A model generated the notes under the pieces. It was not told the DNA's origin and did no database searches. It saw only the letters and a program-made list of their open reading frames with translations. Below are positions 375 to 32,489 of a stretch of DNA of 32,489 nt, one piece after another. A program made the translations under genes and the position numbers. How positions within the stretch are numbered: the first letter of the stretch is position 1; every line of letters starts with the position of its first letter. This DNA is from Tannerellaceae bacterium (lineage in GTDB: Bacteria; Bacteroidota; Bacteroidia; Bacteroidales; Tannerellaceae), in the NCBI GenBank assembly GCA_031288515.1, contig JAITRG010000077.1, positions 1-32,489 on the forward strand, read 5' to 3'.

Positions 375-623
375 AGCGGCAAAAGTAGTGATTTTTCAGC
401 GTATTCTATTTCTACTTTAACACATTAATTCTTTCTCATCAAAAGCATAAAGCCCCCACCCCCTCTTCAGGCCCATACCATTAACCCGTTATACAGGCTT
501 GTTTGGCGACACCTTTCAGTTTTCAGCCGGTTTACAAGCGCTTGCGTATGAACAGCTATGGCTGAAAGAAGACCTTTCAGCCTCGTTTCAGCAAAAAAAT
601 TACAGGGCAGGCGAAAAGGAAAA
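375..623. other. Gene-free stretch with scattered CTTTCAGCC motifs and a hairpin
   Basis: No plausible coding region was found on either strand. The stretch holds several copies of a CTTTCAG(CC)/GGCTGAAAG motif (near 514, 521, 560, 574 and 585, with further copies near 819 and 852). Two of them, GGCTGAAAG at 560-568 and CTTTCAGCC at 574-582, form a perfect 9-bp stem with a 5-nt loop. No T-run follows on either strand, so it is not a typical intrinsic terminator. Confidence 0.5.
380..387 (-). promoter_or_regulatory. Possible -7 box of ygiQ (TACTTTTG), close to the start codon
   Basis: On the minus strand TACTTTTG fits the Bacteroidota TAnnTTTG element and ends only 5 nt before the ygiQ ATG, which would give an almost leaderless transcript. 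No convincing TTTG partner is seen about 19 nt upstream, so the call is tentative. Confidence 0.4.
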
Positions 624-799
624 AATCATTGAGACGCCTTTGGTAAATCATTGAGAAGACTCTGATGAACCATTAAGAAGACTTAAAAAAAGCGCTATGA
701 CGCCTTTGGTAAACCATTATAATGGTTTGGTAAAGAGTATATAATGGTTTACCGACAGCATTATAATAGTTTACTGAAGACTGTATAATGATTTTTTAT
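624..799. repeat. Degenerate 22-bp tandem repeat array, 8 units
   Basis: In register, units start at 624, 646, 668, 690, 712, 734, 756 and 778, each exactly 22 bp. Left units share AAtCATTgAGAaGaC-like sequence and right units share ATTATAATGGTTT-like sequence. The pattern CCTTTGGTA closes units 1 and 4. Unit 5 contains AACCATTATAATGGTT, the core of an 18-bp perfect palindrome at 711-728. GGTAAACCATTAT (708-720) is also inverted exactly at 741-753. No gene is visible inside. The array lies between the sbcC 3' end and the ygiQ 5' end. Its period is close to, but not the same as, the 21-bp arrays later in the window. Confidence 0.85.
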
Positions 800-15754: not shown

Positions 15755-16408
15755 TTATCCTATCACCTTGGTTATGGGGTCAGACCAGGGGCCTTCCTGC
15801 AGGCGGGGGTTCATCCAGGCGGCGGTAAGGACGATGCGCCGGCCTTCGTCCTTCATGTTGAAGTAGAGCGTGAGCCGCAAGCGGGTAGACAATTCAAGAC
15901 GCCATTCCACTTCTTCTTCAAACTTCCAGTGGAGCTTGAAGCCATGATAGGGCTTGAGCTGTACGCCCTGCGTGGGCTGTCCGTGCTCGCTGCGGGCGAC
16001 GTATACCACGAGTTCGTCTTTCCGGTACGCGGTACTTACAAGGGGAGCTTCCGTGGGCACAGGCAGCGGCCGCCGTCCGGGGCGCACGCGGGGGCGGAGG
16101 CTCATGAGGGCTAGGGCGGCGTCGGGCACGGTTTCCTGGCCTTCAAGGTAGTTGATAAAGATCGAAAGGAAGCCCTTCAGATCGGCGAAGGCCCTCTTTT
16201 TTCCCACCGACGTAACATGGTTGCGCGTAGCGCGGTCGCTATTGGCCTGGTAAGCCTTGCTTGCGTCGGCTATCAGAGCGTAGAGGCTTGCCAGGCGCGC
16301 CCCGTCGAGGCCCCAGCTTGCCGAGTGTTCTTTACACTGCTCATAAATAGTGTTTACAAATGCCAGGAATTGCCCGTCCGGCAGCGCATGATAACGTACT
16401 TGCCCCAT
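15755..16408 (-). CDS. Unrecognised 217-aa protein (gene A) beside a 21-bp repeat array
   Basis: The track starts at 16465, but ATG 16408 (MGQVRYHALP) gives 217 aa, exactly the length of the paralogue at 31459-32112, and a TATCTTTG box overlaps the longer start. The first 100 residues are helical (FLAFVNTIYEQ, RATRNHVTSVGKKRAFADLKGFLSIFINYLEG). After a proline-rich linker (RPGRRPLPVPTEAPL) the last 100 residues look beta-rich, with VQLKPYHGFKLHWKFEEE and NPRLQEGPWS. The K-P...W...W.NPR.GPWS pattern recalls fibronectin-III-like ends of small Bacteroidota hypothetical proteins. No signal peptide, membrane helix or catalytic motif is visible. It aligns without gaps to gene B at roughly half identity. 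A long 21-bp tandem array begins about 100 nt upstream. The function is unknown. Confidence 0.8.
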   Translation of the reverse strand: MGQVRYHALPDGQFLAFVNTIYEQCKEHSASWGLDGARLASLYALIADASKAYQANSDRATRNHVTSVGKKRAFADLKGFLSIFINYLEGQETVPDAALALMSLRPRVRPGRRPLPVPTEAPLVSTAYRKDELVVYVARSEHGQPTQGVQLKPYHGFKLHWKFEEEVEWRLELSTRLRLTLYFNMKDEGRRIVLTAAWMNPRLQEGPWSDPITKVIG

Positions 16409-16462
16409 AGCGTGTTTTTTTAAAGATAAAACAAAATGAACGTTCTTACAAAGAAGCCATAG

Positions 16463-16470
16463 CAAAGATA
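16463..16470 (-). promoter_or_regulatory. Probable -7 box of gene A (TATCTTTG)
   Basis: TATCTTTG on the minus strand fits TAnnTTTG and lies about 55 nt before the chosen ATG at 16408, between that start and the repeat array. The paralogue at 31459 has the identical octamer in the corresponding place. A clear -33 TTTG is not seen. Confidence 0.55.
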
Positions 16471-16504
16471 AAAGAATTATCAGGAATCCCTATACTATTT
16501 CATT

Positions 16505-17593
16505 GATTTTTATTTATTTCCACATAATTCTTACTTGTTTCCGGGCGATTCCTATCTATTTCCGGACAAGTCTTATCTATTCCCGGACGATTCTTATCTA
16601 TTCCCGGACGATCCTTATCTATTCCCGAGCGATCCTTATCTATTGTCGGGTAATTCCTATCTATTTCCAGGTGATTCTTATCTATTTTCGGACGATTCTT
16701 ATCTGTTTTCGGATGATTTCTATCTATTTCTGGGCGATTCCTATCTATTTCCAGATAAATCTTATTTATTTTCGAATAATTCTTATCTATTTTCGGGTGA
16801 TTCCTATTTATTTCCGGATGATTTTTATCTATTTTCAAGTAATTCTTATCTATTGCTAGATGATTCCTATCTATTTCCGGGCAATTCTTATTTATTGTCG
16901 GGTAATTTCTGTTTATTTCTGGGTAATTCCTATCTATTTTTAGATAAATCTTATCTATTTTCGGATGATTCCTATTTATTTCCGGATGATTTTTATCTAT
17001 TTTTGAGTAATCCTTATCTATTTCTGAATAATTTCTATCTATTGTTGGGTGATTTTTATCTATTTTCAAGTAATTTTTATCTATTGCTGGATGATTCCTA
17101 TCTATTTCCGGGCAATTCTTATTTATTGTCAGATAATTTCTGTTTATTTCTGGGTAATTCTTATCTATTTTCAGGTAATTCCTATTTATTTCCGGGTGAT
17201 TTTTATCTATTTTTGAGTAAATCTTATCTATTTCTGGATAATTTCTATCTATTGTTGGGTAATTTTTATCTATTATTAAGTAATTTTTATCTATTTCAGG
17301 TAATTTTTATCTATTTTCAGGTAATTTTTATCTATTTTCGGGTGAATTATATTTGTTTCTATGCAAATTATATTTGTTTTTTGATAATTTTTATGTGTTT
17401 CCAGGTGAATTTCATGTATTTCAGATAAATTTTATGTGTTATTGAATGAAGTTTATGTGTTATTGAGTAAATCTTATTTGTTTTTGAATAAAATTTATAT
17501 GTTTTTGGATAAACCTTATTTATTTTTAATAGATTCTACATGTCTTCAAGTTGACTTTATGTATTTTTCTGCAAATTCTATGTGTTTTTGAGT
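16505..17593. repeat. 21-bp tandem repeat array, about 52 units (array A)
   Basis: In register from 16505 the sequence divides into 21-mers with a near-constant core TTATCTATTT, preceded by GATTC or AATTC and followed by CCGGAC, TCGGGT or similar. Units 1-40 (to 17343) are well conserved; units 41-52 decay into AT-rich sequence that keeps the period with three 1-bp losses (units 38, 44 and 49). Variation is mostly C/T and G/A transitions on the plus strand, which is strongly pyrimidine-rich. Units 16-26 (16820-17050) recur as units 27-36 (17051-17260) with one unit lost, a higher-order duplication. The array fills the gap between divergent gene A and the exported phosphatase/nuclease gene. 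Confidence 0.95.
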
Positions 17594-17621
17594 AAACTTT
17601 GAATGAATAATCTTATCTTTG
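17587..17621 (+). promoter_or_regulatory. Possible promoter of the EEP-family gene
   Basis: TATCTTTG at 17614-17621 fits the Bacteroidota -7 box. A TTTG at 17587-17590, contributed by the last decayed repeat unit, lies 23 nt upstream, at the long end of the usual spacing. Transcription would start near 17626, so translation from the track start at 17603 is unlikely. Confidence 0.5.
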
Positions 17622-19252: not shown

Positions 19253-21433
19253 TTATAATACAAGGCTATGCGTGCCGGCAGTTACTTTCTGCCTTTTACC
19301 TTCAGGCGATACGACTTCGGCAGAAGTTCCTTCGGGCACTGTTAGCTGAACCTGAAGCCGGCTGCCTGATTTCTTTATTCCTACCGTTATTTTACCGAAA
19401 TGGGTATCTACTACGGCTCCGACTTCGGTAAGATTGCCCATCTGAGGCTCTACTTTAAAGGTTTTAAAGCCGGGCGACGACGGTTCGACGCCACAGACTT
19501 TCCGGCTTAGCGCCGTCAGCGGGCCTCCGCTCCAGGCATGATTAATCGTTCCGCCACCGAACCCTTCGTCTCCAATGCCCCATCCCTCAAACAGCGTGGT
19601 ATATGGGTAAGCCATCATTCCGGCATAGCGTTCCTTCATGCGCTGCAAAGCAAATTCCGGCCGGTTCATCCGGAAGAGCGCTTCCAATACATACTTCTCC
19701 ATATAGGGGCTGGCGTGGTATTCTTTCCGCAAGACATTTATTATGGCTGGGTATTTATCTTCCGTCGCCAGTCCGGATACAACGGCCATTGCCTGCGCCC
19801 GGTCGTCGGTTTCGCCTTTATAGCCAGGGGAACGATAGGCTGCCCCATTCCAGAAGCGGATGTCGAAACAGTTGGCTAAGGTTTTCATCTTTTGGGTGAT
19901 AAAGGCTACGTCTTCCTGTTTGCCAAGTTGCCCGGCAAACGCTCTTTGCGCTTTGAGGGCTAAGTAATACCAGCAGTTGGTAAGTACGCCCATGTCTATA
20001 TTTTCGCCCCAGTCGCCCCAGTTCCATTCGCCGGTACGTTCGATAGCCAGGCCGCTTTTATCTACTTTCCACACGTCATGCAGGTAACGGGAGAGGCGGT
20101 CGTAAATTACCGGGACAAAAGCGCTGTCGGCGCTATAAAAGTACTGGGTATAAAAACCATACCATCCTACGGAAGCCAGCATCTGGAGAGGCAATTCTTT
20201 CGCCCAGTTACCGGCAGGCACGGGAGAATAGATCACGCCGTCTGCACGCTGCCAGTTCATCAGTTCGTAGATACCTTTAAGGGCCAATTGCTGTCCCGGA
20301 GGAGAAAGTGTATAGAAGACTTCGCCCAGTTCGTTCACTTCGTCTCCCCACCATTGGGCGCGTTCCCTGTCGGGGCAATCCATATAGCTGTCGCGCATGG
20401 TTATATAAAGCGTTCTGGCCGAGCGCTTCCACAATTCGTTATAAAAAGGGTCGTTGCATTGGAACGAGCCGCTGAACTCGGCATTATAACCTGTCTCGCG
20501 ATACCCGGCTTCGAGTACTTTTACCCCTTCCGGGATGATATACCATACCTCATGGCCGTTCATCCATCCATAGCTTTCGTATTCCTGCACACCTTCGCGG
20601 GTGATGTATTCGGCGCGGACGTTATTGGAACTTCCTCCACGATAATTGTCTGTCTGCATATGGATTGTGGCGCCGGATTTTGCTTCTACCCTTAACCAGG
20701 GAGTTACCTGGCAATTGTAAGGAAGCTTACCAATGAGCGTATCGCCGGATTGCCTCATCCCGAAATAAGGCGTTAGCCCGTAATCTTTCCATTGCGGGAT
20801 GGGGCGTTCTACCAATTGCCCGAAAGGGGCGTCTCCTGCTTTGGCTACCGGAACGGCTTGCGGCAAAGAGCCTTCAAAGGCGGTTTGATTCCAACCGTCT
20901 ATTTCCCGCCGGGCGTCAAAACGGATATTGCTTTCCGGCAAACGATAGTTGGGAAACGGGGCTTCCGTATTCTGATAGGCTTCATATATGTCGCACTGCC
21001 AGCTTGCATCAGAGGCAATTTCTATACCGGGAGCCGCCGCATCAAACAGCAGAGCCGCTTTACCGCTATTGATATGGCTAAACCCGTCTTGCCCGAAATG
21101 CCATACCAGTACGGCTATCAGATTCTCTCCCGGCGTGAGATAAGGCGCAATATCTACTACGTCGTAATAGGTATCATGCGGCGAAGGGCCGCGCTTCAGC
21201 CCGCCTTCAAAAACGACCATTTGGTTGTTTATCCAAAGCCAGTATTTGGAATCGGCGGCAATACGGGCTTTAAGAGATTGCGGAACGGTGGCGATATCGG
21301 CCGTTTTCCGGTAAATCAACCAGGTGTTTTTAGCGCTCTGACATCTTTCCGTATTAATCCATTGCCCTTTCCATTCTGCGGCAAACGTATGCTGCGCTAC
21401 CATAAGCAGCGCGAATAAAAACAGCTTTTTCAT
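19253..21433 (-). CDS. Alpha-L-rhamnosidase-type glycoside hydrolase (GH78-like), exported
   Basis: ATG 21433 gives MKKLFLFALLMVAQHTFAAEW, a clean signal peptide, 2 nt after the stop of the gene before; the track start at 21439 is a TTG that overlaps that stop. The product is 726 aa. A beta-sandwich N-terminal region (KYWLWINNQMVVFEGGLKRGPS, Bac_rhamnosid_N-like) is followed by an (alpha/alpha)6 barrel with MRDSYMDCPDRERAQWWGDEVNE (the GH78 DCP.RE...W.GD segment), ERTGEWNWGDWGENIDMGVL, TTLFEGWGIGDEGFGGGTINHAWSGGP and a C-terminal beta-domain (GKITVGIKKSGSRLQVQLTVPEG). It probably removes terminal L-rhamnose from plant or bacterial glycans outside the cytoplasm. It is the last gene of the rhamnose operon. 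Confidence 0.85.
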   Translation of the reverse strand: MKKLFLFALLMVAQHTFAAEWKGQWINTERCQSAKNTWLIYRKTADIATVPQSLKARIAADSKYWLWINNQMVVFEGGLKRGPSPHDTYYDVVDIAPYLTPGENLIAVLVWHFGQDGFSHINSGKAALLFDAAAPGIEIASDASWQCDIYEAYQNTEAPFPNYRLPESNIRFDARREIDGWNQTAFEGSLPQAVPVAKAGDAPFGQLVERPIPQWKDYGLTPYFGMRQSGDTLIGKLPYNCQVTPWLRVEAKSGATIHMQTDNYRGGSSNNVRAEYITREGVQEYESYGWMNGHEVWYIIPEGVKVLEAGYRETGYNAEFSGSFQCNDPFYNELWKRSARTLYITMRDSYMDCPDRERAQWWGDEVNELGEVFYTLSPPGQQLALKGIYELMNWQRADGVIYSPVPAGNWAKELPLQMLASVGWYGFYTQYFYSADSAFVPVIYDRLSRYLHDVWKVDKSGLAIERTGEWNWGDWGENIDMGVLTNCWYYLALKAQRAFAGQLGKQEDVAFITQKMKTLANCFDIRFWNGAAYRSPGYKGETDDRAQAMAVVSGLATEDKYPAIINVLRKEYHASPYMEKYVLEALFRMNRPEFALQRMKERYAGMMAYPYTTLFEGWGIGDEGFGGGTINHAWSGGPLTALSRKVCGVEPSSPGFKTFKVEPQMGNLTEVGAVVDTHFGKITVGIKKSGSRLQVQLTVPEGTSAEVVSPEGKRQKVTAGTHSLVL

Positions 21434-21435
21434 AT

Positions 21436-24021
21436 TCAATCTTTATAAGTAAACGTATGCAAACCGGAGCCTACGGATTGTTTAACGCCGTTTACAATAA
21501 TATCGGCCGTGCAATTGGCAGGGATACTTACTTTCAGCGTTACCTGTCCTTCCTCCCTTGTCCAATGAGAATAAACGTATCCGTTTACCGACCGGTAAGC
21601 GCCTTTCGCCCAGCTCAGCTCCTTCACGAAGTGAGGCGTTATCAATACATTCCTGAAGCCGGGCTTCGACTCGTCATAATTTATACCGGCAATCCGGTTC
21701 ATCATCCAGGCAGACACGTCGCCCATAAATACATGGTTCAGCGAAGCATCATGAAACTGAGGACTCAACGTCCATGTCTCGGCCAAGGTGGCGTACCCCA
21801 TTGTTTCCACCCAGTATCCCCACGAAGGAGCATCTGTTTTCAATACCATCTTCATGGCGTCTTCTACGTATCCGTACCGGGTAAGCATGGCGGGAACCGT
21901 TTTGCTGCCTAATAAGCCAAAATCAAGGAAATGATCGCCCGCCTCCACTACTTCTTTTAATTTAGCGGCTACGGCCTCTTCCCTGCCTTCGGGCACAATA
22001 CCCAGGTAAAGAGCCAGCGCCTGCGCCGTTTGCGTGCCTTCGGCATAGGTATTGGCGGCGGCATCGAAGAATTTAGCGTTGACCAGTTCTTTCAGGCGGG
22101 CAGCCTTCTGCTCGTAGGGAGCCGGGTCTTTTCCTGTCAGGCCGGCAAAACGGGCCATCAGGGTATAATCCAAATAATAATAGGCGGTAGACGTATATTC
22201 GTAGTTTGTAACGGCTTTCCAGTATACCCAGTCGCCCAGTCCGAACGGCAGGTATCCGCCGTCTTTTTCTTTCGCCTGAAGATAGGCCAGGTAACGTTCC
22301 ATCACAGGATAAATCTTTTCGATGCATTGGGTATCGCCATAATAGTTATACAAAGCGTTCGGTATGATAAAGAGCGCAGCGTCCCATACCGGCCCGGGCC
22401 ATTCGCCGTATCCCCACCCGCTCGATGGAATAATCCCGGAAATGCCGCCCCCTTCGAGTTGATTGTCGATAAAGTCGTTCATCCATTTTTCATAGAACGT
22501 AATGCCGTCGAAACCCAGCAGCCCCAGGTCTGCGGCAACATGCGCATCAGCCGTCCAGCCGTTCTTTTCGCGTTGCGGACAATCGGTCGGTATGCTATGG
22601 ATATTGCTGCGGTAAGCCAGCATGGTAGCGTCCCAGATTTTGTTCATCAGTTCATTGGAACAACTAAAGCTTCCAGCCGGGTTCAAATCTGTATGGATAA
22701 AACAGGCGGTAAGGCTTTCTTCGTTTAGCTCAACAGGCTCGGAGGCTTCTACTTCCACATGTTGAAAACCATGATAGGTAAAGGATGGCATAAAGGTTTC
22801 GCCGGCTTCATCGCCACTGAGGTAATAGATATCCGTCTGGAATTTCTCATACGGTTTCACCGGATGATAGTATACGTCGATATTCCCCTGCTCAAGACGG
22901 CCGTTTTCTTTTAATAATTCGCCGTATTTCAACGTTATTTTCGTGCCGGCAGCGCCTTTTATATCAAGCCTGCATAAACCGGCAATATTTTCAGGGAATG
23001 AGAAGACATACAGCTTATCGCTGAATTTCTTAACAGAATCGGGAGAATAGTAACCGGTAACGGAAATACCCGGCGCCGGCTGCGCCGTAATAAGAGGAGC
23101 GGGCGCTTGCGTAAGCGTGGCAGGCTGCCAGCCGCTTTCGTCGCACTCAGGCGTTTTCCAGCCTTTGTCGAGCCGCGCATCATATATATCGCCGCTATAC
23201 AAATTGTTATATAAATAAGGGCCGGTAGACGTTTTCCAGCTTTCATCCGTACCGAATGTATCTACCGTACCATCCGTATAGGTTACACGAAGTTCGCACA
23301 TCATACGCGGCCGGTTACGCCAGCGGGCTTCATGGAAATTCCACGTAGCCACCGACTGTTCGTTATACCAGCCATTGCCTAATACGGTTGCGATGATATT
23401 TTCTCCCGGTTTGAGGCTGTAAGTAACGTCGTGCGTTACGTAAAGAATGCGCTTATCAAAATGCGTATAACCTGGATCGAGGTAGTTCACGCCTACGCGC
23501 GAACCATTAATAAAGGCTTCATAATATCCGGCGGCGGCTATATAGAGGCGGGCCTTTTCTACCTCTTTGTTTATCGTTACTTTCTTGCGGAAAAGCGGAG
23601 CCGGTTCATACTCTTTATCATGGCTGTCGGTAATCCATCCGGCAGACCAGTCGGCAGCGGAAAACTTGGCTGTCTCAAAATAAGCGGTATCGCTTGTCAG
23701 GGTTTTCGTTCCTTTTTCGTCCCATCCTGTTACTACCCAGTAATACCCTGTATGGGGCTGAAGAGGAGTTCCTTCCTTGTATGTTTCCAATTTACCGGGT
23801 TCGGCGCCTAATTTTATTTCATACCGGGAAATGACGGCAGGTTCTTCGCCATCGTTTTCGTAGCTCCAGGTAAGCCGTGGCGCAGGCGTACCTATTCCTG
23901 CAGGGTCGTACAGATATTCGGTACGCAGGTCTGTCGGCGCGATATGCCGGTTCTCCCGGTTACATCGTATCGCAGTAAATACCCATACTACGCAAACAAT
24001 AATAAATAATAATTTCCGCAT
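21436..24021 (-). CDS. Alpha-L-rhamnosidase (GH78), probable lipoprotein
   Basis: 861 aa, the length of multi-domain GH78 enzymes. MRKLLFIIVCVVWVFTAIRC is a signal sequence with a possible lipidated Cys20. Domains in order: a fibronectin-like segment (LRTEYLYDPAGIGTPAPRLTWSYEND), Bac_rhamnosid_N with YIAAAGYYEAFINGSRVG and YLDPGYTHFDKRILYVTHDV, a further beta-domain ending near 430, then the catalytic barrel with IHSIPTDCPQREKNGWTADAHV and FLDFGLLGSKTVPAMLTRYGY, and a final beta-domain (WTREEGQVTLKVSIPANCTADIIVNG). The DCPQRE...W..DA block is the GH78 signature. It hydrolyses terminal alpha-L-rhamnosides. It lies 10 nt downstream of the 584-aa hydrolase gene. Confidence 0.93.
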   Translation of the reverse strand: MRKLLFIIVCVVWVFTAIRCNRENRHIAPTDLRTEYLYDPAGIGTPAPRLTWSYENDGEEPAVISRYEIKLGAEPGKLETYKEGTPLQPHTGYYWVVTGWDEKGTKTLTSDTAYFETAKFSAADWSAGWITDSHDKEYEPAPLFRKKVTINKEVEKARLYIAAAGYYEAFINGSRVGVNYLDPGYTHFDKRILYVTHDVTYSLKPGENIIATVLGNGWYNEQSVATWNFHEARWRNRPRMMCELRVTYTDGTVDTFGTDESWKTSTGPYLYNNLYSGDIYDARLDKGWKTPECDESGWQPATLTQAPAPLITAQPAPGISVTGYYSPDSVKKFSDKLYVFSFPENIAGLCRLDIKGAAGTKITLKYGELLKENGRLEQGNIDVYYHPVKPYEKFQTDIYYLSGDEAGETFMPSFTYHGFQHVEVEASEPVELNEESLTACFIHTDLNPAGSFSCSNELMNKIWDATMLAYRSNIHSIPTDCPQREKNGWTADAHVAADLGLLGFDGITFYEKWMNDFIDNQLEGGGISGIIPSSGWGYGEWPGPVWDAALFIIPNALYNYYGDTQCIEKIYPVMERYLAYLQAKEKDGGYLPFGLGDWVYWKAVTNYEYTSTAYYYLDYTLMARFAGLTGKDPAPYEQKAARLKELVNAKFFDAAANTYAEGTQTAQALALYLGIVPEGREEAVAAKLKEVVEAGDHFLDFGLLGSKTVPAMLTRYGYVEDAMKMVLKTDAPSWGYWVETMGYATLAETWTLSPQFHDASLNHVFMGDVSAWMMNRIAGINYDESKPGFRNVLITPHFVKELSWAKGAYRSVNGYVYSHWTREEGQVTLKVSIPANCTADIIVNGVKQSVGSGLHTFTYKD

Positions 24022-24031
24022 AGTTTTCTTT

Positions 24032-25786
24032 TTATTCTGTCAGTATGGTTATTCCTTCCGGAGCCTTTATGACGCTTTCTATTTCGCCGTCCGCTTTTTT
24101 CTCATGGCGAATGGTTATTATACCCCGGGGCGTGGGGAATGTACCTTCTACCCATTGCAAATCGCCAAGATTCGGAACGATACGCACTTTGCTGCATCCG
24201 GGTTCTACCACCTGCACGCCGAGGACATATTCGCTCAGCCACGCCGTAGGCCCCGAAGCCCAGCCGTGGCAAAGGCTATGCCTGAAACCCTTGTAACAAT
24301 AATCGCCGTAATCTCCGTGAATATCTTTTTTCCCTTCGGGAATCAATTCGTCAATACGCCCGGCATTTGCCAGCCAGTCGATATTGAAGTCTTCCCAGAA
24401 AGTAGTGGCGCCCAAATCAAGCATGGCGCCCCAATAGCGGCGGATTACGTCGAGCGCCCCCCGGTAGTTTCCGGCGGCCGCCATGGCGCGCAGCATATAG
24501 TATCCGTAAAAGGTAGAGAAGCCGCTTGCGCCATTGACCGATAAGAATTTCTCGTCTGCCTCATCCGGTTCCATCATACCTGCCAGCGCCATTAATGCTG
24601 CCGCTTGTTTGGATCCCGGGGCATCCGGCTTTTTCCCCGAATTGAGGACGGCTTTGTATGCTTCCGACGATACTTTTACGGCACGGTCCGTGGCCTTGCT
24701 ACATTCTTTAGCCAATTCAAAGTCGCCAAGAATGGCGCATAGTTCTCCGCCTGCTTTGAAGGCCATGATCATCAAGGCCTGCAAGCCGGCGTTTATCGCT
24801 TCTTTATTTTCGCTCGAAGGCCAGTCGAGGAAACGGCTCCCGTCTAACTGTTCACGCCCGTCCTTGTCTGTCTTATCCATTAAGTAGCGAAGCAGGCCGG
24901 CGAGGTATTCTTTCTGTTTTTCCAGGTATTTTAAATCGCCCTGGTAGTAATACCAGTCACGGTGTATCAGTATCCACCAGAGGGAGTATGAGCTTATGCT
25001 GTTCATCCAGCCCGGGAGGGGCGTTATATCCCGTACCAAGTCGAGGCTTTTGGGTACGGATTCGTTTTTACCGAATACGGTATTCACCGTCATCACTTCG
25101 GGATGAAGGTCGCCCACCCATACGAGGCGGTCGCGTTTGATACCGTCCCACAGGTAATCCTGCATATTGAGGTGTACCGTGTATGCGCCCGTCTGCCAGA
25201 TACGGTTGAGCCGCTCGTCGTTGCAGCGGAACGAGCCTTTATAGGGAATATCGCGATAGGTATAAACGGCTCTTATCTCTTTCAGATACAGCTCTGTTTC
25301 TTTACTTACGAGGTCTATCCGCGCAAAGCGGAAACCGGAGTTACCTACCTCCATTACGCCAAGCCAGGGAAGGGTTATTTTAAAATCCCTCATGGCATGG
25401 TCGTTGGTGGCTCCTTTTTCGCCAATGTCGCTCATCGCTTCGCCGGCGGATTCTCCCAAACGGATTCTTACTTCTACCGGCGTTTGCGAATCAGACATCC
25501 CGGTAACGAGTTGGATGCCTCCTTGCAGTTCGCGTCCGAAGTCAAGCAGGATAGCAGCCGAGGCGTCGCCTGTATTTTTCATTACGCAGATGCGGCTATT
25601 GGACAAATCGGATTGCCCGTTTCCCGGCAAAAGCAGATTGTCTACATTTTTAATCAGCGTATCGTTCTGTTGCCATACAATCCGAACGGGAGAAAGATAC
25701 TCCCTCACCCGTTCATCCCGTTGCCGGGCAATGGCGGGAATAGAAAGGATTGCTAATATAATAACTGTTGCCTTTTTCATTTTCAC
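24032..25786 (-). CDS. Alpha-L-rhamnosidase-like hydrolase (GH78-like), exported
   Basis: 584 aa with signal peptide MKMKKATVIILAILSIPAIA (a second Met at residue 3 is equally possible). The N-terminal beta-domain reads ILLDFGRELQGGIQLVTG, as in rhamnosidase accessory domains. The barrel begins at YKGSFRCNDERLNRIWQTGAYTV and carries YLWDGIKRDRLVWVGDLHPE, the counterpart of the DCP.RE...W.GD segment but with Gly-Ile in place of Cys-Pro. It continues with CHGWASGPTAWLSEYVLGVQ and a C-terminal beta-strand region. It is shorter than typical GH78 proteins and belongs to a divergent subgroup, so its bond specificity is less sure. The operon context supports action on rhamnosides. Confidence 0.78.
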   Translation of the reverse strand: MKMKKATVIILAILSIPAIARQRDERVREYLSPVRIVWQQNDTLIKNVDNLLLPGNGQSDLSNSRICVMKNTGDASAAILLDFGRELQGGIQLVTGMSDSQTPVEVRIRLGESAGEAMSDIGEKGATNDHAMRDFKITLPWLGVMEVGNSGFRFARIDLVSKETELYLKEIRAVYTYRDIPYKGSFRCNDERLNRIWQTGAYTVHLNMQDYLWDGIKRDRLVWVGDLHPEVMTVNTVFGKNESVPKSLDLVRDITPLPGWMNSISSYSLWWILIHRDWYYYQGDLKYLEKQKEYLAGLLRYLMDKTDKDGREQLDGSRFLDWPSSENKEAINAGLQALMIMAFKAGGELCAILGDFELAKECSKATDRAVKVSSEAYKAVLNSGKKPDAPGSKQAAALMALAGMMEPDEADEKFLSVNGASGFSTFYGYYMLRAMAAAGNYRGALDVIRRYWGAMLDLGATTFWEDFNIDWLANAGRIDELIPEGKKDIHGDYGDYCYKGFRHSLCHGWASGPTAWLSEYVLGVQVVEPGCSKVRIVPNLGDLQWVEGTFPTPRGIITIRHEKKADGEIESVIKAPEGITILTE

Positions 25787-25816
25787 TTGCTTGCTTTTAC
25801 TGTCTGACTATGTTTA

Positions 25817-26614
25817 CTATTCTATCTTATCCAGGCCGAATGCCGGAACCAAGCCATCTAACTGTTCATCGGTCATTCCTTCGGGTTCGTAGCCTGCCAT
25901 GCGGGCGCTGAAGTAGATTTGCGCCGATTTGCCGAGCGTATCGATTGCATCGAAACATTCGATAATGTCTTCGCCTACGGCCAGGATACCGTGTTTCTCC
26001 CAGAATACCACGTCGTGCTTTTCGAGCTGTTTGATTGTGGCGTGCGCCAGTTCAACTGTTCCCGGTATTTCATAAGGAACGATTCCTATTCCTTTCGGTA
26101 CGATGATACGGCACTCCGGAATCATACTCCACAGCAGTCGGGTGATAACTTCCGACTGTATTAACGGTTTGCAATGCGTCATCCCTATCAGATCGGTAGG
26201 ATGTGTGTGCAATACCACTTTATTGTCGCGTCCTTTGGCGCGGAGGTAATTGTGCATCAGCAGGTGGGAAGGCAGTTCGGAAGTAGGCGCAATCGCTTCT
26301 TCGGCAATAATTTCGTATGAAAGGCCGTCGTCGGCAATCCGTATCAGGGAACCGTTGGCAAATGGCGCCTGCGCTACGTATCGCATCCGTTTACCGGTTC
26401 CGGTTACGTAAAAGATGTGCCCGGCGAGCGCTGTCATGGCTTCCGGCAAAGATACCGCAGGGGCGATGGCAGGCCGTTTCTTTTCTTCTTCACTCATCAG
26501 GGCGGTAACGTTCACCGATATGTTTCCTCCGTTACGCTCTGCCCAGCCTTTGGCCCAAAGATATCCGGCCACTTCGGCTATACGGGCTATTTCACGCATT
26601 AATACCTCATTCAT
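25817..26614 (-). CDS. rhaD: Rhamnulose-1-phosphate aldolase
   Basis: 265 aa, close to E. coli RhaD (274 aa). A class II zinc aldolase that splits L-rhamnulose-1-phosphate into dihydroxyacetone phosphate and L-lactaldehyde in the cytoplasm. The zinc ligands are seen in VVLHTHPTDLIGMTH (HTH near residue 137) and the third histidine in VVFWEKHGILAVGED (near 207). GYLWAKGWAERNGGNISVNVT at residues 18-38 is the phosphate-binding loop of the class II aldolase/adducin fold. It follows rhaT by 89 nt, the largest gap in the operon, and precedes the hydrolase genes by 30 nt. The start ATG is the family start. Confidence 0.94.
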   Translation of the reverse strand: MNEVLMREIARIAEVAGYLWAKGWAERNGGNISVNVTALMSEEEKKRPAIAPAVSLPEAMTALAGHIFYVTGTGKRMRYVAQAPFANGSLIRIADDGLSYEIIAEEAIAPTSELPSHLLMHNYLRAKGRDNKVVLHTHPTDLIGMTHCKPLIQSEVITRLLWSMIPECRIIVPKGIGIVPYEIPGTVELAHATIKQLEKHDVVFWEKHGILAVGEDIIECFDAIDTLGKSAQIYFSARMAGYEPEGMTDEQLDGLVPAFGLDKIE

Positions 26615-26703
26615 TCTTTTGATTCTTTTATTTATTTTATTTTCTATGATTATTATTCTATTACTTTAATTACCGATTATTTTACGTAGCTGCTCCGGCT
26701 ATT

Positions 26704-27723
26704 TTAAACAAGATTCGGGAAGAAAAGGGAGAATATCAACAGCCCCATGCCGGCGACGAGGACATAGATTGTCGTCATGCCTGTTCCTTTCCACTCTTTG
26801 AGGATAATGCCCCATACGTTGCTTAATATAACATTGAGCGACATCAGGATACTCCACGAAAAGGCCAGCATCACGGGCGAACCGGCGAAATAGCTCTTTC
26901 CCATTCCCAGACCGAAAAACTGGGAGTACCACAACACGCCGGCTAAGGCGCAAAATAACACATTATTGAGCAATGCTCCGCCTGATACGGCGAAATAATC
27001 TTTCCCGCTTTTGTTTTTAATGTTCTGGAAGATGCAGTAAACCGCATTGGTAAAGAAGCCTCCCAGCGTTACCATCAGGGTGGCGGGCAACGTTTTGAAC
27101 AACTCGTTGCTTCCGTCTGCCACAAGCGGCTCGCCGGCTTCAAGTCCCAGAGCGAAACAGGCGCTCATAACGCCTGCCAGCAAAGCGACCGACAATCCTT
27201 TTGTCAAGGCGAAATCTTTTACGGCCGCTTTCTTTTCTTCTTCCGTCATATTCTTTGCCCGCAGGCTTCCGGCATAGCCTATCACGGCAATACCTCCGAG
27301 GGTTATGCAGACGCCGATGAGGAGTATCAATCCATTGCCTTGAAACAAATCCGTACCTTTCATCAGCGCGGGAATGACCGTGCCGAATGCAGAGCAGGTT
27401 CCCAGGGCGATAGACTGCCCCAGGGCTATTCCCAGGTAGCGCATGCTCAGCCCGAAGGTGAGCCCCCCTATCCCCCACAGTACGCCAAAGCCCATTGCCT
27501 TGAGTGCGGCGGATGGGTCGGCAGAGAGAATCTGCGCCAGGCTGCTTCCTTCGGGTACAGCCAGCAGCGCGCCCAAAAGAGGAAAGACGAGCCAGGCAAA
27601 GATTCCCTGTACAAGCCAGAAACATTCCCAGCTCCATCCTTTCACTTTATTAACAGGTACGTATGAACTGCTTTGTCCGAAACTCCCTATCGCAATAATT
27701 ACTAAACCGATAATCGTGTTCAT
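26704..27723 (-). CDS. rhaT: L-rhamnose/proton symporter RhaT
   Basis: 339 aa with about ten membrane helices, matching E. coli RhaT (344 aa) in length. Diagnostic stretches are PVNKVKGWSWECFWLVQGIFAWLVFP, GFGVLWGIGGLTFGLSMRYLGIALGQSIALG, LLNNVLFCALAGVLWYSQFFGLGMG and ILSNVWGIILKEWKG. E. coli RhaT has the same KVKKWSWE, MWGIG, TMRYLGM, LWYLQFF and LKEW landmarks. It imports L-rhamnose with a proton across the inner membrane. It lies between rhaI (18 nt) and rhaD (89 nt). Confidence 0.95.
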   Translation of the reverse strand: MNTIIGLVIIAIGSFGQSSSYVPVNKVKGWSWECFWLVQGIFAWLVFPLLGALLAVPEGSSLAQILSADPSAALKAMGFGVLWGIGGLTFGLSMRYLGIALGQSIALGTCSAFGTVIPALMKGTDLFQGNGLILLIGVCITLGGIAVIGYAGSLRAKNMTEEEKKAAVKDFALTKGLSVALLAGVMSACFALGLEAGEPLVADGSNELFKTLPATLMVTLGGFFTNAVYCIFQNIKNKSGKDYFAVSGGALLNNVLFCALAGVLWYSQFFGLGMGKSYFAGSPVMLAFSWSILMSLNVILSNVWGIILKEWKGTGMTTIYVLVAGMGLLIFSLFFPNLV

Positions 27724-27741
27724 AAAAAAAACGCTGTTTTT

Positions 27742-29001
27742 TTAGATTCTCTTACTCGTTACTTCTTTTTCGTACTTCTGGATGGCGGAAATGCACTCTT
27801 CGTCCGGAGGGACGTCGTTGCTCATGCAATACATATCCCATACGGCGTTCCAGGGGAGGGTTTTGGCTGCTTCCTGCAGGGCGAGGCGTTCAAAGTATTT
27901 TCCTTCTGCTTCGTATTGCTGCAAAAGGCGGGAGGGTTCAAGCATGGCGGCGAGGATGGCTTTTTGCGTAGCCCGGCAACCGATTACGTAGGCTCCGATA
28001 CGATTGATCGTAGCGTCGAAATAATCGAGGCCGATATGTACGCGATCCAAGGCGTCGCAGCGGATTATTTCGCGGGCTAAATCCAGCAGGTCGTCATTCA
28101 GTATCACTACATGGTCGCTATCCCAGCGTACCGGACGGCTTACGTGGAGCATAATTTCGGGCGTGAAAAGAAGCAGTGACGAAATCTTGTCGGCAACGCT
28201 CTCCGTCAGATGGAAGTGGCCGGTATCAAGGGTTACGATTTTCCCCTTTTTCGCCCCGTATCCCAGGTAGAAGTCGTACGAGCCTACGGTATAGCTTTCC
28301 AGGCCGATGCCGAAGAGTTTTGCTTCGATACAGTCTTTCATATGGCTGTATTCGGCGGCGAATATCTCGTCGAGCGACTGTTCGAGGATACGGCGGTATT
28401 TCAGGCGGTTGGCCGGCACTTCCTTGCTTCCGTCATGAATCCAGAGGTTCATCATGCAGGGGTCTCCCTGGGCAACGCCTATTTCTTCGCTTATGCGGCG
28501 GCAGCGTTTGGTGTGTTCGATCCAGAAGTTGCGGATGGCGTCGTCGGGGTTCGACAAGGTGAGGTTGCCGCTCTTGGGGTGCGAGAAGGAGGTGGAGTTG
28601 AAATCGAGCTTCATACCGTTTTCCCTCGCCCATTGTATCCAGGAGGCGAAGTGGGCCGGCTCTACTTCGTTGCGGTCTACTTTTTTACCGCCGAAGTCGC
28701 CGTATATTTCGTGCAGGTTCAGGCGATGGCGGCCGGCTATGTATGAAGCGGCCGTTTTGACGTCAGCGCGCAGTTCGTCGATGGTGCGGGCACGTCCGGG
28801 ATAATTGCCGGTCACCTGAATACCGCCGGTCAGTTCTCCTCCCTGACTCTCAAAGCCGCTTACGTCGTCGGCCTGCCAGCAATGGAGGGATAGAGATACT
28901 TTTTTCATTTCTTCAAGTTTCTGGTATACGTCTATGCCATAAACTTGGTAACGTTCGGTTGCCAGTACAAATGCAGCCCGGATGGATTGTTCTTTTTGCA
29001 T
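27742..29001 (-). CDS. rhaI: L-rhamnose isomerase
   Basis: 419 aa, usual length for RhaA/RhaI. It converts L-rhamnose to L-rhamnulose in the cytoplasm using divalent metal ions in a TIM barrel. Recognisable segments are LSLHCWQADDVSGFE near residue 37, HRLNLHEIYGDFGGKKVDRNEV near 96, LDFNSTSFSHPKSGNLTLSNPD near 133, VTLDTGHFHLTESVADKI (D and H metal ligands, near 265), LHVSRPVRWDSDHVVILND near 294 and IHIGLDYFDATINRIGAYVIG-type sequence near 322. It is the second gene of the operon, 40 nt after rhaK. The name rhaI follows Bacteroides usage; rhaA is the E. coli name. Confidence 0.96.
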   Translation of the reverse strand: MQKEQSIRAAFVLATERYQVYGIDVYQKLEEMKKVSLSLHCWQADDVSGFESQGGELTGGIQVTGNYPGRARTIDELRADVKTAASYIAGRHRLNLHEIYGDFGGKKVDRNEVEPAHFASWIQWARENGMKLDFNSTSFSHPKSGNLTLSNPDDAIRNFWIEHTKRCRRISEEIGVAQGDPCMMNLWIHDGSKEVPANRLKYRRILEQSLDEIFAAEYSHMKDCIEAKLFGIGLESYTVGSYDFYLGYGAKKGKIVTLDTGHFHLTESVADKISSLLLFTPEIMLHVSRPVRWDSDHVVILNDDLLDLAREIIRCDALDRVHIGLDYFDATINRIGAYVIGCRATQKAILAAMLEPSRLLQQYEAEGKYFERLALQEAAKTLPWNAVWDMYCMSNDVPPDEECISAIQKYEKEVTSKRI

Positions 29002-29041
29002 ATTATTCTATTTTATAAATTCATTAACTGTTTACTTGTTT

Positions 29042-30469
29042 TTACTGCTCCCCGGGCAGGAATACTTCGGGCGGGAAGGCGGCGGCTATGAGGCGGCGCA
29101 TTTCCCAACGGTCTTTTAAGAGACCGGCGGCTTTGGCCTGAATCATGATATTGCCTATGGCTGTGGCTTCGGCCGGGCCGGCTATGACGGGTATTCCTGC
29201 GGCATTGGCCGTAAAGCGGTTCAAGAGGTTATTGCGGGAGCCTCCTCCTATTACGTGCAGCTTTTCAATGGGAAAAGGGGCAATTTTTTTCAGGGTGGCA
29301 AGCGTTTCGCCGTAACGGTTTGAGAGGCTGGCAAAGATGCAGCGGACAAACTCGGCGTGCGTCGAGGGCGCCGGCTGGCCGGTATGCCTGCAATAAGCGG
29401 CGATGGCGGCGGTCATACGTTCCGGATTGGCAAAGGAGGGGTCGTCGGGGTTCACTGTAGAGGGGAAGGCGGCGGCTTCTGCGGCCATCGCTACGATTTG
29501 CGGGTAGGCGTAGGTTTGGCCGCTTCGCTCCCACTCTTTCCGGCACTGCTCGAGGAGCCACATGCCGGTGATATTTTTCAGGAAGCGGGTAGTGCCTTCT
29601 ATCCCTCCTTCGTTGGTGAAATTATTCCGGTAGGATTCGCCGGTGATGATGGGCTGTTCTACTTCTATGCCCATCAGACTCCACGTGCCGCTGCTCAGGT
29701 AGGCAAAGTTTGCGTCGGCGGCGGGTACGGCGGCAACGGCCGAGGCTGTATCATGTCCGGCAACGGCTATGACGGGGATTTTCCCGGCGCCCGTTTCCTT
29801 CGCCACAGAATCGGTAAGCAGGCCTGCGAATGTGCCGGGCATAACCGGACGGCGCAGTATGCCGGGCGAAACGCCTGCCGCTTCGAGCAGCCCGGGTTCA
29901 AACTCTTTGGTGGCCGGGTTCAGTATCTGCGAGGTAGAGGCGATTGTATATTCGCACACTTTATTGCCCGTAAGCATGTAGGAGAGCAGGTCGGGGATGA
30001 AAAGGATTTCCGCGGCTGCTTCGAGTGGGGCGAAACGGCGCTGCCTGGCCCTGTAAAGCTGGAAGAGGCTGTTGAAGTTCATTATCTGTATGCCCGTGAG
30101 CCGGTAGACTTCTTCGCGGGGGATGATGCGGAAGAAATCGTCGGGGGCGCCTTCGGTGTAAGGGTCGCGATAAGCGCGGGGCATGCCCGTGAGCGAGCCG
30201 TCGGCTCCTACAAAACCGTAGTCTACGCCCCAGGTATCGATACCCATCGAATCAATCGCCACGCCTTGCCGCGCGCAGAGGGAGAGGCTTGTTTTGATGG
30301 ATTCACAGAGGCTGAAGACGTCCCAATAGTATCTTCCGTGCAATTCTATAATGTTATTGGGGAAGCGGTGCGCTTCCTGCATTTCGAGCTTGCCGCTCTC
30401 TACCGAGGCGATGACGGCACGTCCGCTCGTGGCCCCGATATCAATGGCTAAAAAGGTATGTTTCTTCAT
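29042..30469 (-). CDS. rhaK: Rhamnulokinase
   Basis: 475 aa FGGY-family sugar kinase (E. coli RhaB 489 aa). It phosphorylates L-rhamnulose to L-rhamnulose-1-phosphate with ATP. The N-terminal phosphate-binding motif FLAIDIGATSGRAVIASV is at residues 6-23. Others are SMGIDTWGVDYGFVG near 76, the catalytic-base region AVAGHDTASAVAAVPA near 237, LSSGTWSLMGIE near 260 and the C-terminal adenosine motif HVIGGGSRNNLLNRFTANAAGIPVIAGPAEATAIGNIM near 405. It is the promoter-proximal gene of the operon and faces the AraC-type regulator gene across 95 nt. The ATG at 30469 is the family start. Confidence 0.95.
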   Translation of the reverse strand: MKKHTFLAIDIGATSGRAVIASVESGKLEMQEAHRFPNNIIELHGRYYWDVFSLCESIKTSLSLCARQGVAIDSMGIDTWGVDYGFVGADGSLTGMPRAYRDPYTEGAPDDFFRIIPREEVYRLTGIQIMNFNSLFQLYRARQRRFAPLEAAAEILFIPDLLSYMLTGNKVCEYTIASTSQILNPATKEFEPGLLEAAGVSPGILRRPVMPGTFAGLLTDSVAKETGAGKIPVIAVAGHDTASAVAAVPAADANFAYLSSGTWSLMGIEVEQPIITGESYRNNFTNEGGIEGTTRFLKNITGMWLLEQCRKEWERSGQTYAYPQIVAMAAEAAAFPSTVNPDDPSFANPERMTAAIAAYCRHTGQPAPSTHAEFVRCIFASLSNRYGETLATLKKIAPFPIEKLHVIGGGSRNNLLNRFTANAAGIPVIAGPAEATAIGNIMIQAKAAGLLKDRWEMRRLIAAAFPPEVFLPGEQ

Positions 30470-31458: not shown

Positions 31459-32112
31459 TTATCCTACCACCATGCCGATGGAGGGCGCCCAGGGGCCTTC
31501 CTGCAGGCGCGGGTTTATCCATGCTGCTGAGATGGTTACGCGGCGCGTTTCATCCTTCGCATCAAAAAAGATGGTGTGATGAAGGCGGGTGGATATTTCG
31601 ACATGCCAGTCTGCTTCCTCTTCGAACTTCCAGCGCAGCTTAAAGCCGTGATAGGGCTTAAGCTGTACGCCATGGGCGGGCTGTCCCTGCTCGCTGCGGG
31701 TAACGTATACCGTTATCTCGTCGTGCTGCTGCGAAAAGCGGAGCAGCGGGGCTTCCGTGGGTACGGGCAGCGGCTTGTGCGCAGGCTGCGTGCGCGGGCG
31801 GAGATGCATGTCTGCCAGGTTTTCGTCCGTCACCTCTTCATTGCCTTCAAGGGCGTCAATGAAGAGCGAGAGGAAATGTTTCAACTCTCCGAATGTCAGT
31901 TTTTTCTCCACAGAGGTAAGATGATTGCGCGTGGAAGGCGTATTGTTGGCTATGTATGCATTGGTAGCTAAGCGTGTATGCATTTCCAGCTTTTTTACGC
32001 GTTCTGCGTCTAACTTCCAGTTAATCTGATGGTCATTAACCTGTGTGTAAAAATCGTTGGCAAAAGCAATGAACTCTTTGTCCGATTGCTTTAAGGTACT
32101 TCTCCTGTTCAT
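31459..32112 (-). CDS. Unrecognised 217-aa protein (gene B), paralogue of gene A
   Basis: 217 aa from ATG 32112 (MNRRSTLKQS). It aligns with gene A end to end without a gap. The helical N-terminal half shares FYTQ, TRNHLTSVEKK and LKHFLSLFIDALEG with A's equivalents. The linker PLPVPTEAPL is identical, and the C-terminal half shares VYVTRSEQGQP, GVQLKPYHGFKLRWKFEEE, EISTRLHHT and AAWINPRLQEGPW. The C-terminal half is the more conserved, the N-terminal half more variable. No signal peptide, membrane helix or catalytic motif is seen. A 21-bp tandem array lies about 125 nt upstream, as at gene A. Its stop is 6 nt from the rhaR stop, with no terminator between. Confidence 0.82.
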   Translation of the reverse strand: MNRRSTLKQSDKEFIAFANDFYTQVNDHQINWKLDAERVKKLEMHTRLATNAYIANNTPSTRNHLTSVEKKLTFGELKHFLSLFIDALEGNEEVTDENLADMHLRPRTQPAHKPLPVPTEAPLLRFSQQHDEITVYVTRSEQGQPAHGVQLKPYHGFKLRWKFEEEADWHVEISTRLHHTIFFDAKDETRRVTISAAWINPRLQEGPWAPSIGMVVG

Positions 32113-32166: not shown

Positions 32167-32174
32167 CAAAGATA
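32167..32174 (-). promoter_or_regulatory. Probable -7 box of gene B (TATCTTTG)
   Basis: TATCTTTG on the minus strand about 55 nt before the gene B ATG is the same octamer at nearly the same distance as upstream of gene A. No convincing -33 element is seen. Confidence 0.55.
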
Positions 32175-32238
32175 GCAGAATTATTGATAACATCTATATT
32201 ATTTCAATTTTTTTTTGCATGGGATTGAAAAAAATCCG

Positions 32239-32427
32239 CGCAGAAACGGGTGATTTCCACGCAGAAACGAGCCTTTTCTACACGGAAACGAGCGATTTCC
32301 ACACAGAAACGGGCTTTTTCCACACGGAAACGGGCTTTTTCCACGCGGAAACGGGCGATTTCCACGCGGAAACGGGCGGCTTCCACGCGGAAACGGGCGG
32401 CTTCCACGCGGAAACGGGCGATTTCCG
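32239..32427. repeat. 21-bp tandem repeat array, 9 units (array B)
   Basis: Nine units of exactly 21 bp start at 32239, 32260, 32281, 32302, 32323, 32344, 32365, 32386 and 32407. The consensus begins CGCGGAAACGGGCGATTTCC. Units far from gene B (6-9) are nearly identical, and those near it (1-4) carry A for G and C/T changes. Most units have GGAAA facing TTTCC across 7 nt, giving each a small dyad. The sequence is unrelated to array A, but the period, orientation and position upstream of a paralogous gene are the same. A tenth, degraded unit may follow at 32428. Confidence 0.95.
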
Positions 32428-32489
32428 TGGGGAAAGTTACGGATGTTTTGCTATCTGGCGCGAATATCGGCGCTCCACATTAACTTTTC
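32428..32489. other. Window end beyond array B; nothing recognised
   Basis: These 62 nt hold a possible degraded tenth unit (GGGGAAAG) and otherwise no supported feature before the window ends. Confidence 0.3.

Follow-up and report, generated by a model that had tools for sequence, protein, structure and literature searches.

Genes of an undescribed small-protein family are almost always preceded by private 21-bp repeat arrays

Rows of short repeats that adjoin the gene for a repeat-binding protein are well established from iterons and from parC/ParR, in which the repeat sequence is conserved and the proteins are of the ribbon-helix-helix or Rep type. RAYT genes have REP sequences on their flanks (PMC3116915) and encode tyrosine (Y1/HUH) transposases that occur in a single copy per type (PMC3116915; PMC8049555). 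Among the Bacteroidales, the nearest described minisatellite is BrickBuilt, a minisatellite MITE of Porphyromonas gingivalis with a 23-bp unit and inverted leader and tail ends (PMC4596501). The module considered here, a gene paired with a private repeat array, fits none of the known systems, and neither such a pairing nor the protein family has been found described in the open-access literature.

The window analysed, i.e., the whole 32,489-nucleotide stretch of a Tannerellaceae contig, contains two copies of this module with the following features.

15755..16408, reverse strand: gene A, a member of the 217-aa family, with its ATG at 16408 and its stop codon ending at 15755 (open reading frame, paralogue search and alignment)
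16463..16470, reverse strand: TATCTTTG box of gene A, 62 bp before the ATG, between array and gene (sequence)
16505..17597 (start approximate), no strand assigned: array A, period 21, about 49-52 degenerate units (repeat analysis)
31459..32112, reverse strand: gene B, 217 aa, 54% identical to gene A (open reading frame, paralogue search and AlphaFold)
32167..32174, reverse strand: TATCTTTG box of gene B, between array and gene (sequence)
32235..32435, no strand assigned: array B, nine 21-bp units with the dyad core TTTCCGCGTGGAAA, a motif also dispersed elsewhere in the genome

The order of protein, TATCTTTG box and 21-bp array, which the original prediction had read at both genes, is confirmed by these coordinates, the inner edge of array A lying 97 nt from the ATG of gene A. 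Unit comparison has likewise upheld its statement that the two repeat sequences are unrelated, next to proteins of 217 aa each that share 54% identity. Its description as a two-copy module holds for the pairing of genes A and B with arrays and not for the number, as C103 and C165, two further paralogues in the 3.84-Mb draft genome of the window, have 21-bp arrays with unrelated units as well, which makes the module a four-copy one in this genome. Promoters of Bacteroidota have a -7 element of the form TAnnTTTG, and TATCTTTG fits this form, so that we take it to be the -7 element of genes A and B. A TAnnTTTG box at about 62 bp, between array and gene, is found in both genes and their closest relatives, and the position of 61-62 bp recurs at the loci L002, L004 and L005. 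Window positions 19253-30469 have, judged by the translations, the look of a rhamnose-use cluster, with alpha-rhamnosidase-like proteins, an aldolase, a transporter, an isomerase and a kinase, followed by an AraC-type regulator.

The module of gene and array has been established by computation well beyond the window. A single scoring scheme covering all periods from 8 to 60 has been applied to 112 non-redundant genes for which 200 bp or more of upstream sequence is available, and 99 of them carry an upstream array of period 21 (74 genes) or 42 (25 genes); one further gene has an array of period 41, one of period 51, and 11 have none. On the downstream side, period 21 or 42 occurs in just 6 of 118, a difference with a Fisher P of 3e-42 that is nominal only, since the genes are related to one another. 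The original prediction had expected arrays to be enriched upstream of homologues, as they are, and had regarded homologues without arrays above background frequency as evidence to the contrary, which these counts do not provide. Its combination of fixed gene, fixed period and free repeat sequence extends to at least 112 genes in four phyla. At the surveyed loci, the median distance between array end and ATG is 79 bp, and the arrays have a median of about 11 units, with up to about 49. The same association has been observed in 41 genes drawn from three genomes, those of a Treponema, a Dysgonomonadaceae and the isolate TAV2, in which most copies have a unit of their own. Of the 116 arrays of period 21 or 42 within 1.07 Mb surrounding family genes, 102 are situated directly 5' of such a gene; the remaining 14 are for the most part microsatellite-like, coding, or located at contig ends.

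Several features of individual loci have been noted alongside. At the nadK, AraC and EEP flanks, the gene-less relatives are rearranged and offer no clean empty site for comparison. Tandem repeats of 8, 9 and 14 bp directly follow the stop codon in the Prevotellaceae loci L069, L079, L083, L094 and L099. At L002 (1204-2148) array and gene form one unbroken open frame, and several copies in G521 show long open frames of 300-457 aa; in both cases a fused repeat-plus-protein product is possible.

The 217-aa proteins belong to a family that had not been described before; its members are small, 217-222 aa across the module, and homologues are found in Bacteroidota, Spirochaetota, Planctomycetota and Verrucomicrobiota. 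Their distribution is patchy: 37 of the 125 genomes in the window's taxonomic family have them, with at most 16 matches per genome, as do just 5 of 396 genomes sampled across the phylum, the window's own among them. The scan of named genomes has returned 305 relatives, the best 80 of which come from Tannerella, Prevotellaceae, Dysgonomonadaceae, Odoribacteraceae, Planctomycetaceae and Treponema bins and from the isolate Geminisphaera colitermitum TAV2, a Verrucomicrobium with 5 copies. From accession series and isolate names, we read nearly all of the named host bins as being of termite-gut origin. Copy numbers reach 46 in a Treponema, the maximum, within a genome of 2.7 Mb; a planctomycete has 32 copies and a Dysgonomonadaceae bin 31. 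The phyla are intermixed in the family tree beyond what a single origin per phylum needs, which falls short of proving cross-phylum transfer, since paralogy and binning errors could contribute to the mixing.

No model in the Pfam, NCBIfam, PADLOC and PHROGs profile libraries matches the family; Pfam gives no convincing match in any of 31 + 71 members, and PDB sequences give none to the family. A phage origin has been rejected as unsupported, with no homologue in phage, plasmid and IMG/VR records. AlphaFold2 predicts an N-terminal helix bundle and a C-terminal beta-sandwich (pLDDT 91 for gene B and 94), and Foldseek assigns the C-terminal half of the model to the FN3 domains (E ~1e-5, probability 1.00, target TM up to 0.76), with no match to the helix bundle among its best results. 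The predicted proteins thus share the FN3 beta-sandwich fold with fibronectin type III domains but differ from them in having no convincing Pfam match and in the fusion to an N-terminal helix bundle.

Regarding the described systems, the module is somewhat like REPIN-RAYT in its logic. In both cases a gene is flanked by its own palindromic repeat type, and the types differ between genes of one genome; here the flanking repeats are the private arrays with their enrichment in dyads, not every array being palindromic. The scattering of a repeat type through extragenic space, typical of REPIN-RAYT, is found here for the gene B and C165 motifs in two genomes (G000 and G007), whereas a Treponema motif stays in cis. 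The protein, by contrast, combines a helix bundle with an FN3 fold and has no match to a transposase, Y1/HUH or other; up to 46 paralogues occur per genome, compared with a single copy per RAYT type, and the repeats form head-to-tail arrays of period 21 or 42 instead of inverted REP doublets (REPINs). By this analogy, the module would follow REPIN-RAYT logic without the transposase, and with a different defining protein it is not a member of that system. BrickBuilt resembles the arrays as a many-copy intergenic tandem minisatellite of Bacteroidales, some copies of which have promoter activity (PMC4596501). It differs in its 23-nt unit, as 99 of the 101 loci with an array have period 21 or 42, and in being one element family of fixed sequence in one species with no linked protein family, whereas here the sequence is free and a gene family spans four phyla. 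Operator and centromere arrays such as iterons and parC/ParR also have rows of short repeats adjoining a gene, but in the present module the repeat sequence is free and the protein fold is different. The array units are contiguous, without the spacers of CRISPR-like arrays.

Arrays apart from the family genes have been surveyed in 769 kb of the 3.84 Mb of the window's genome (G000). The core TTTCCGYGYGGAAA of gene B recurs there, in identical or closely similar form, in 21-bp arrays at C10, C29, C19 and C39, which precede pstS, dxs, a dnaB-like gene and a cation ATPase gene, respectively (gene names from translations), and arrays related to that of the C165 gene are found at C54 and C289. Gene B (83%) and the C165 gene (86%, with synteny across 8 kb) both have orthologues in the sister genome G007, in which both motifs are dispersed in 21-bp clusters, including 22 exact gene B core sites, many of them 21 or 42 bp apart. 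Genomes of the same genus without these orthologues show no such dispersal; the gene B core has 0, 3, 3, 1 and 0 isolated sites in G008, G005, G004, G003 and G009. The C165 motif forms clusters in G000 and G007 alone, the holders of that orthologue; the same five genomes give isolated one-mismatch matches at most, and G006 and G012 give none. Different family members with different arrays are present in G009, and G004, which is 99% complete and without the family, shows no period-21 array in 800 kb. The arrays before pstS and the ATPase gene occupy the same positions in G000 and G007, and the centre of the core is not the same in the two, ACGC being frequent in the arrays of G000 and absent in G007; that it differs at all loci together suggests a change in trans. 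This co-occurrence constitutes a single clade contrast, G000 and G007 against the rest, and because both genomes share both genes the two motifs do not represent two independent origins. The one motif examined in Treponema G520 has been found only in its own cis array.

Arrays of 21 bp beside unrelated genes, which according to the original prediction would count against the module if equally common, do exist in the window's genome but have been seen only in genomes that hold the gene of their motif; we regard them as informative and not fatal on this ground. They also bear on the suggestion of a selfish minisatellite that has no function for the gene, spreads by slippage or recombination and accompanies the gene by hitch-hiking or an insertion preference. 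Dispersal before unrelated genes, other dispersed 22-bp arrays in the genus and the known BrickBuilt minisatellite MITEs of Porphyromonas (PMC4596501) would suit such an element, but it fails to account for one period on the 5' side of 99 of 112 genes in four phyla or for a relative that lacks the gene and has no period-21 array in 800 kb, which renders it decidedly improbable.

Dispersed intergenic arrays of another kind, with a period of 22, occur at window positions 623-794 and at eight loci in the surveyed 769 kb of the window's genome (L255, L277, L283, L290, L292, L305, L306 and L310); unlike the 21-bp arrays, most of these share a AAACCATTATAATGTCTTC-like sequence between loci. G004, a genome of the same genus, has twelve period-22 arrays (L319-L348) in about three palindromic sequence families, which may have a different partner. 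At L238 in G015, degenerate palindromic CATCCAGATGATG-like repeats, about 21 bp apart, follow the nadK stop codon; no family member has been found in G015 with gene B as query.

The sequence of the unit is unrelated between most genes, even between L086 and L091, the proteins of which are 89% identical. A few close orthologues share an array core, and protein similarity predicts array similarity only in few close pairs. For several paralogue pairs, DNA homology ends near the inner edge of the array and, on the 3' side, a few to about 50 bp past the stop codon. Dyad symmetry exceeds that of column-permuted controls in 38 of 102 arrays (p<=0.05), about 60% having no significant dyad, and is strong in 48 of 119. 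Mismatches within the strong dyads are balanced between G-T (75) and A-C (86), and this lack of a G-T bias makes the symmetry seem to act on DNA, not RNA. The counts over all arrays (304 versus 385) likewise contain no G-T excess and leave the array-derived or small RNA of the original prediction unsupported. An RNA leader of tandem hairpins, serving as regulatory or protein-binding RNA, would agree with the often palindromic units, with arrays that fall inside the predicted leader at a number of Bacteroidota loci and with a slight preponderance of G-T over A-C (39 versus 26) in that subset. Given the mismatch counts, the promoter box downstream of the array in the gene B clade and the absence of any Rfam match in the window, we consider it very improbable.

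As the period is fixed and the sequence free, the array could instead be a structural or tuning element independent of sequence, in which units placed every two helical turns curve the DNA and whole-turn changes in copy number tune a promoter. A wedge model gives coherent curvature for random units at period 21 and at 31-32, little at 17-20 and 23-30 bp, and an intermediate result at 22. Real units are no more curved in it than permuted ones (median p 0.45), and selection on intrinsic curvature of the unit sequence has been rejected for want of a signal. Together with dyads and motif-specific trans arrays, which it leaves unexplained, and a promoter upstream of the array in many loci, this result makes a purely structural role improbable.

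The main rival, which the original prediction had not considered, is a translated leader, in which 21 bp would correspond to seven codons. Its product would begin with a short N-terminal segment and continue as heptapeptide repeats, and the operon would consist of two genes, one for this hypervariable repeat peptide and one for its conserved FN3 partner. A TAnnTTTG promoter precedes the array by no more than about 170 bp in 35 loci; in the last 150 bp before the array, the box is found 35 times in sense and 11 times in antisense orientation. The first ATG mostly follows 22-43 nt past the box and opens a frame that spans the array in 21 of 29 cases, compared with 42% for other codons (P=0.001), and leader N-termini are homologous in some pairs (L064/L060, L083/L079 and L074/L069). 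Taken together, these observations indicate that the array may be translated in a subset of Bacteroidota. Over all 101 loci, however, ATG-started frames through the array are hardly above chance (60 versus 49-52), and antisense open frames are nearly as common as sense ones (196 versus 225). Unit variation within arrays shows no codon periodicity, and the codon-position signal in the N-terminal pairs is weak (48/44/66); this speaks against coding as a general rule, although it may apply to the subset. The promoter box of the gene B clade stands between array and gene, and dyads and scattered arrays find no explanation. A translated leader is thus unlikely, if clearly the strongest of the alternatives.

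We favour over it the reading that each array is a private DNA element of its gene, made of dyad sites and read by the module, to which we assign a probability of roughly 0.4. An array would then present a helically phased row of dyad sites, 21 bp being two turns, and its most likely reader would be a dimer of the encoded protein or a complex recruited by that protein; recognition by the encoded protein is what we infer. An array-binding protein and helical phasing, two of the roles suggested in the original prediction, would both be part of this reading. Such reading would control the adjacent gene and act in trans on scattered arrays, in analogy to a RAYT and its own REP sequences or a regulator and its operators. 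Repeat turnover is proposed to grow and rewrite the arrays while period and symmetry are kept, and the sequence of the unit would drift freely for this reason.

Arguments for this DNA element come from the near-constant 5' arrays, rare on the 3' side, and their location next to family genes in the 1.07 Mb; from the dyads, the G-T/A-C balance and the missing codon periodicity; and from the trans arrays, which occur in the two genomes with the matching orthologues, keep their positions before pstS and the ATPase gene with the core centre changed everywhere, and have no period-21 counterpart in 800 kb of the gene-less G004. On the other side, the protein carries a slight net negative charge (-0.8), with a basic helix 3, and has no recognised DNA-binding fold, and unrelated arrays beside proteins of 70-89% identity (e.g., L086/L091) are odd for a lock-and-key recognition. 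The cis-only motif of G520, the single clade contrast and the majority of arrays with no significant dyad weigh against it as well, as does the promoter before the array in many Bacteroidota loci, by which the array may be transcribed.

We tentatively propose a new class of gene-repeat module, in which a helix-bundle/FN3 family is spread over four termite-gut phyla, each paralogue would possess and read a 21-bp dyad array of its own in cis, subject to continual rewriting, and some lineages would carry the same motif scattered in trans. The family is abundant in four phyla of one habitat and without annotation, and its most conserved feature outside the protein is the period of a repeat, not its sequence. 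If the array is translated, the module would be a new hypervariable repeat-peptide operon; if it is read by its own protein, a protein-DNA pairing would be rewritten copy by copy, which would offer a test bed for the co-evolution of specificity and repeats.
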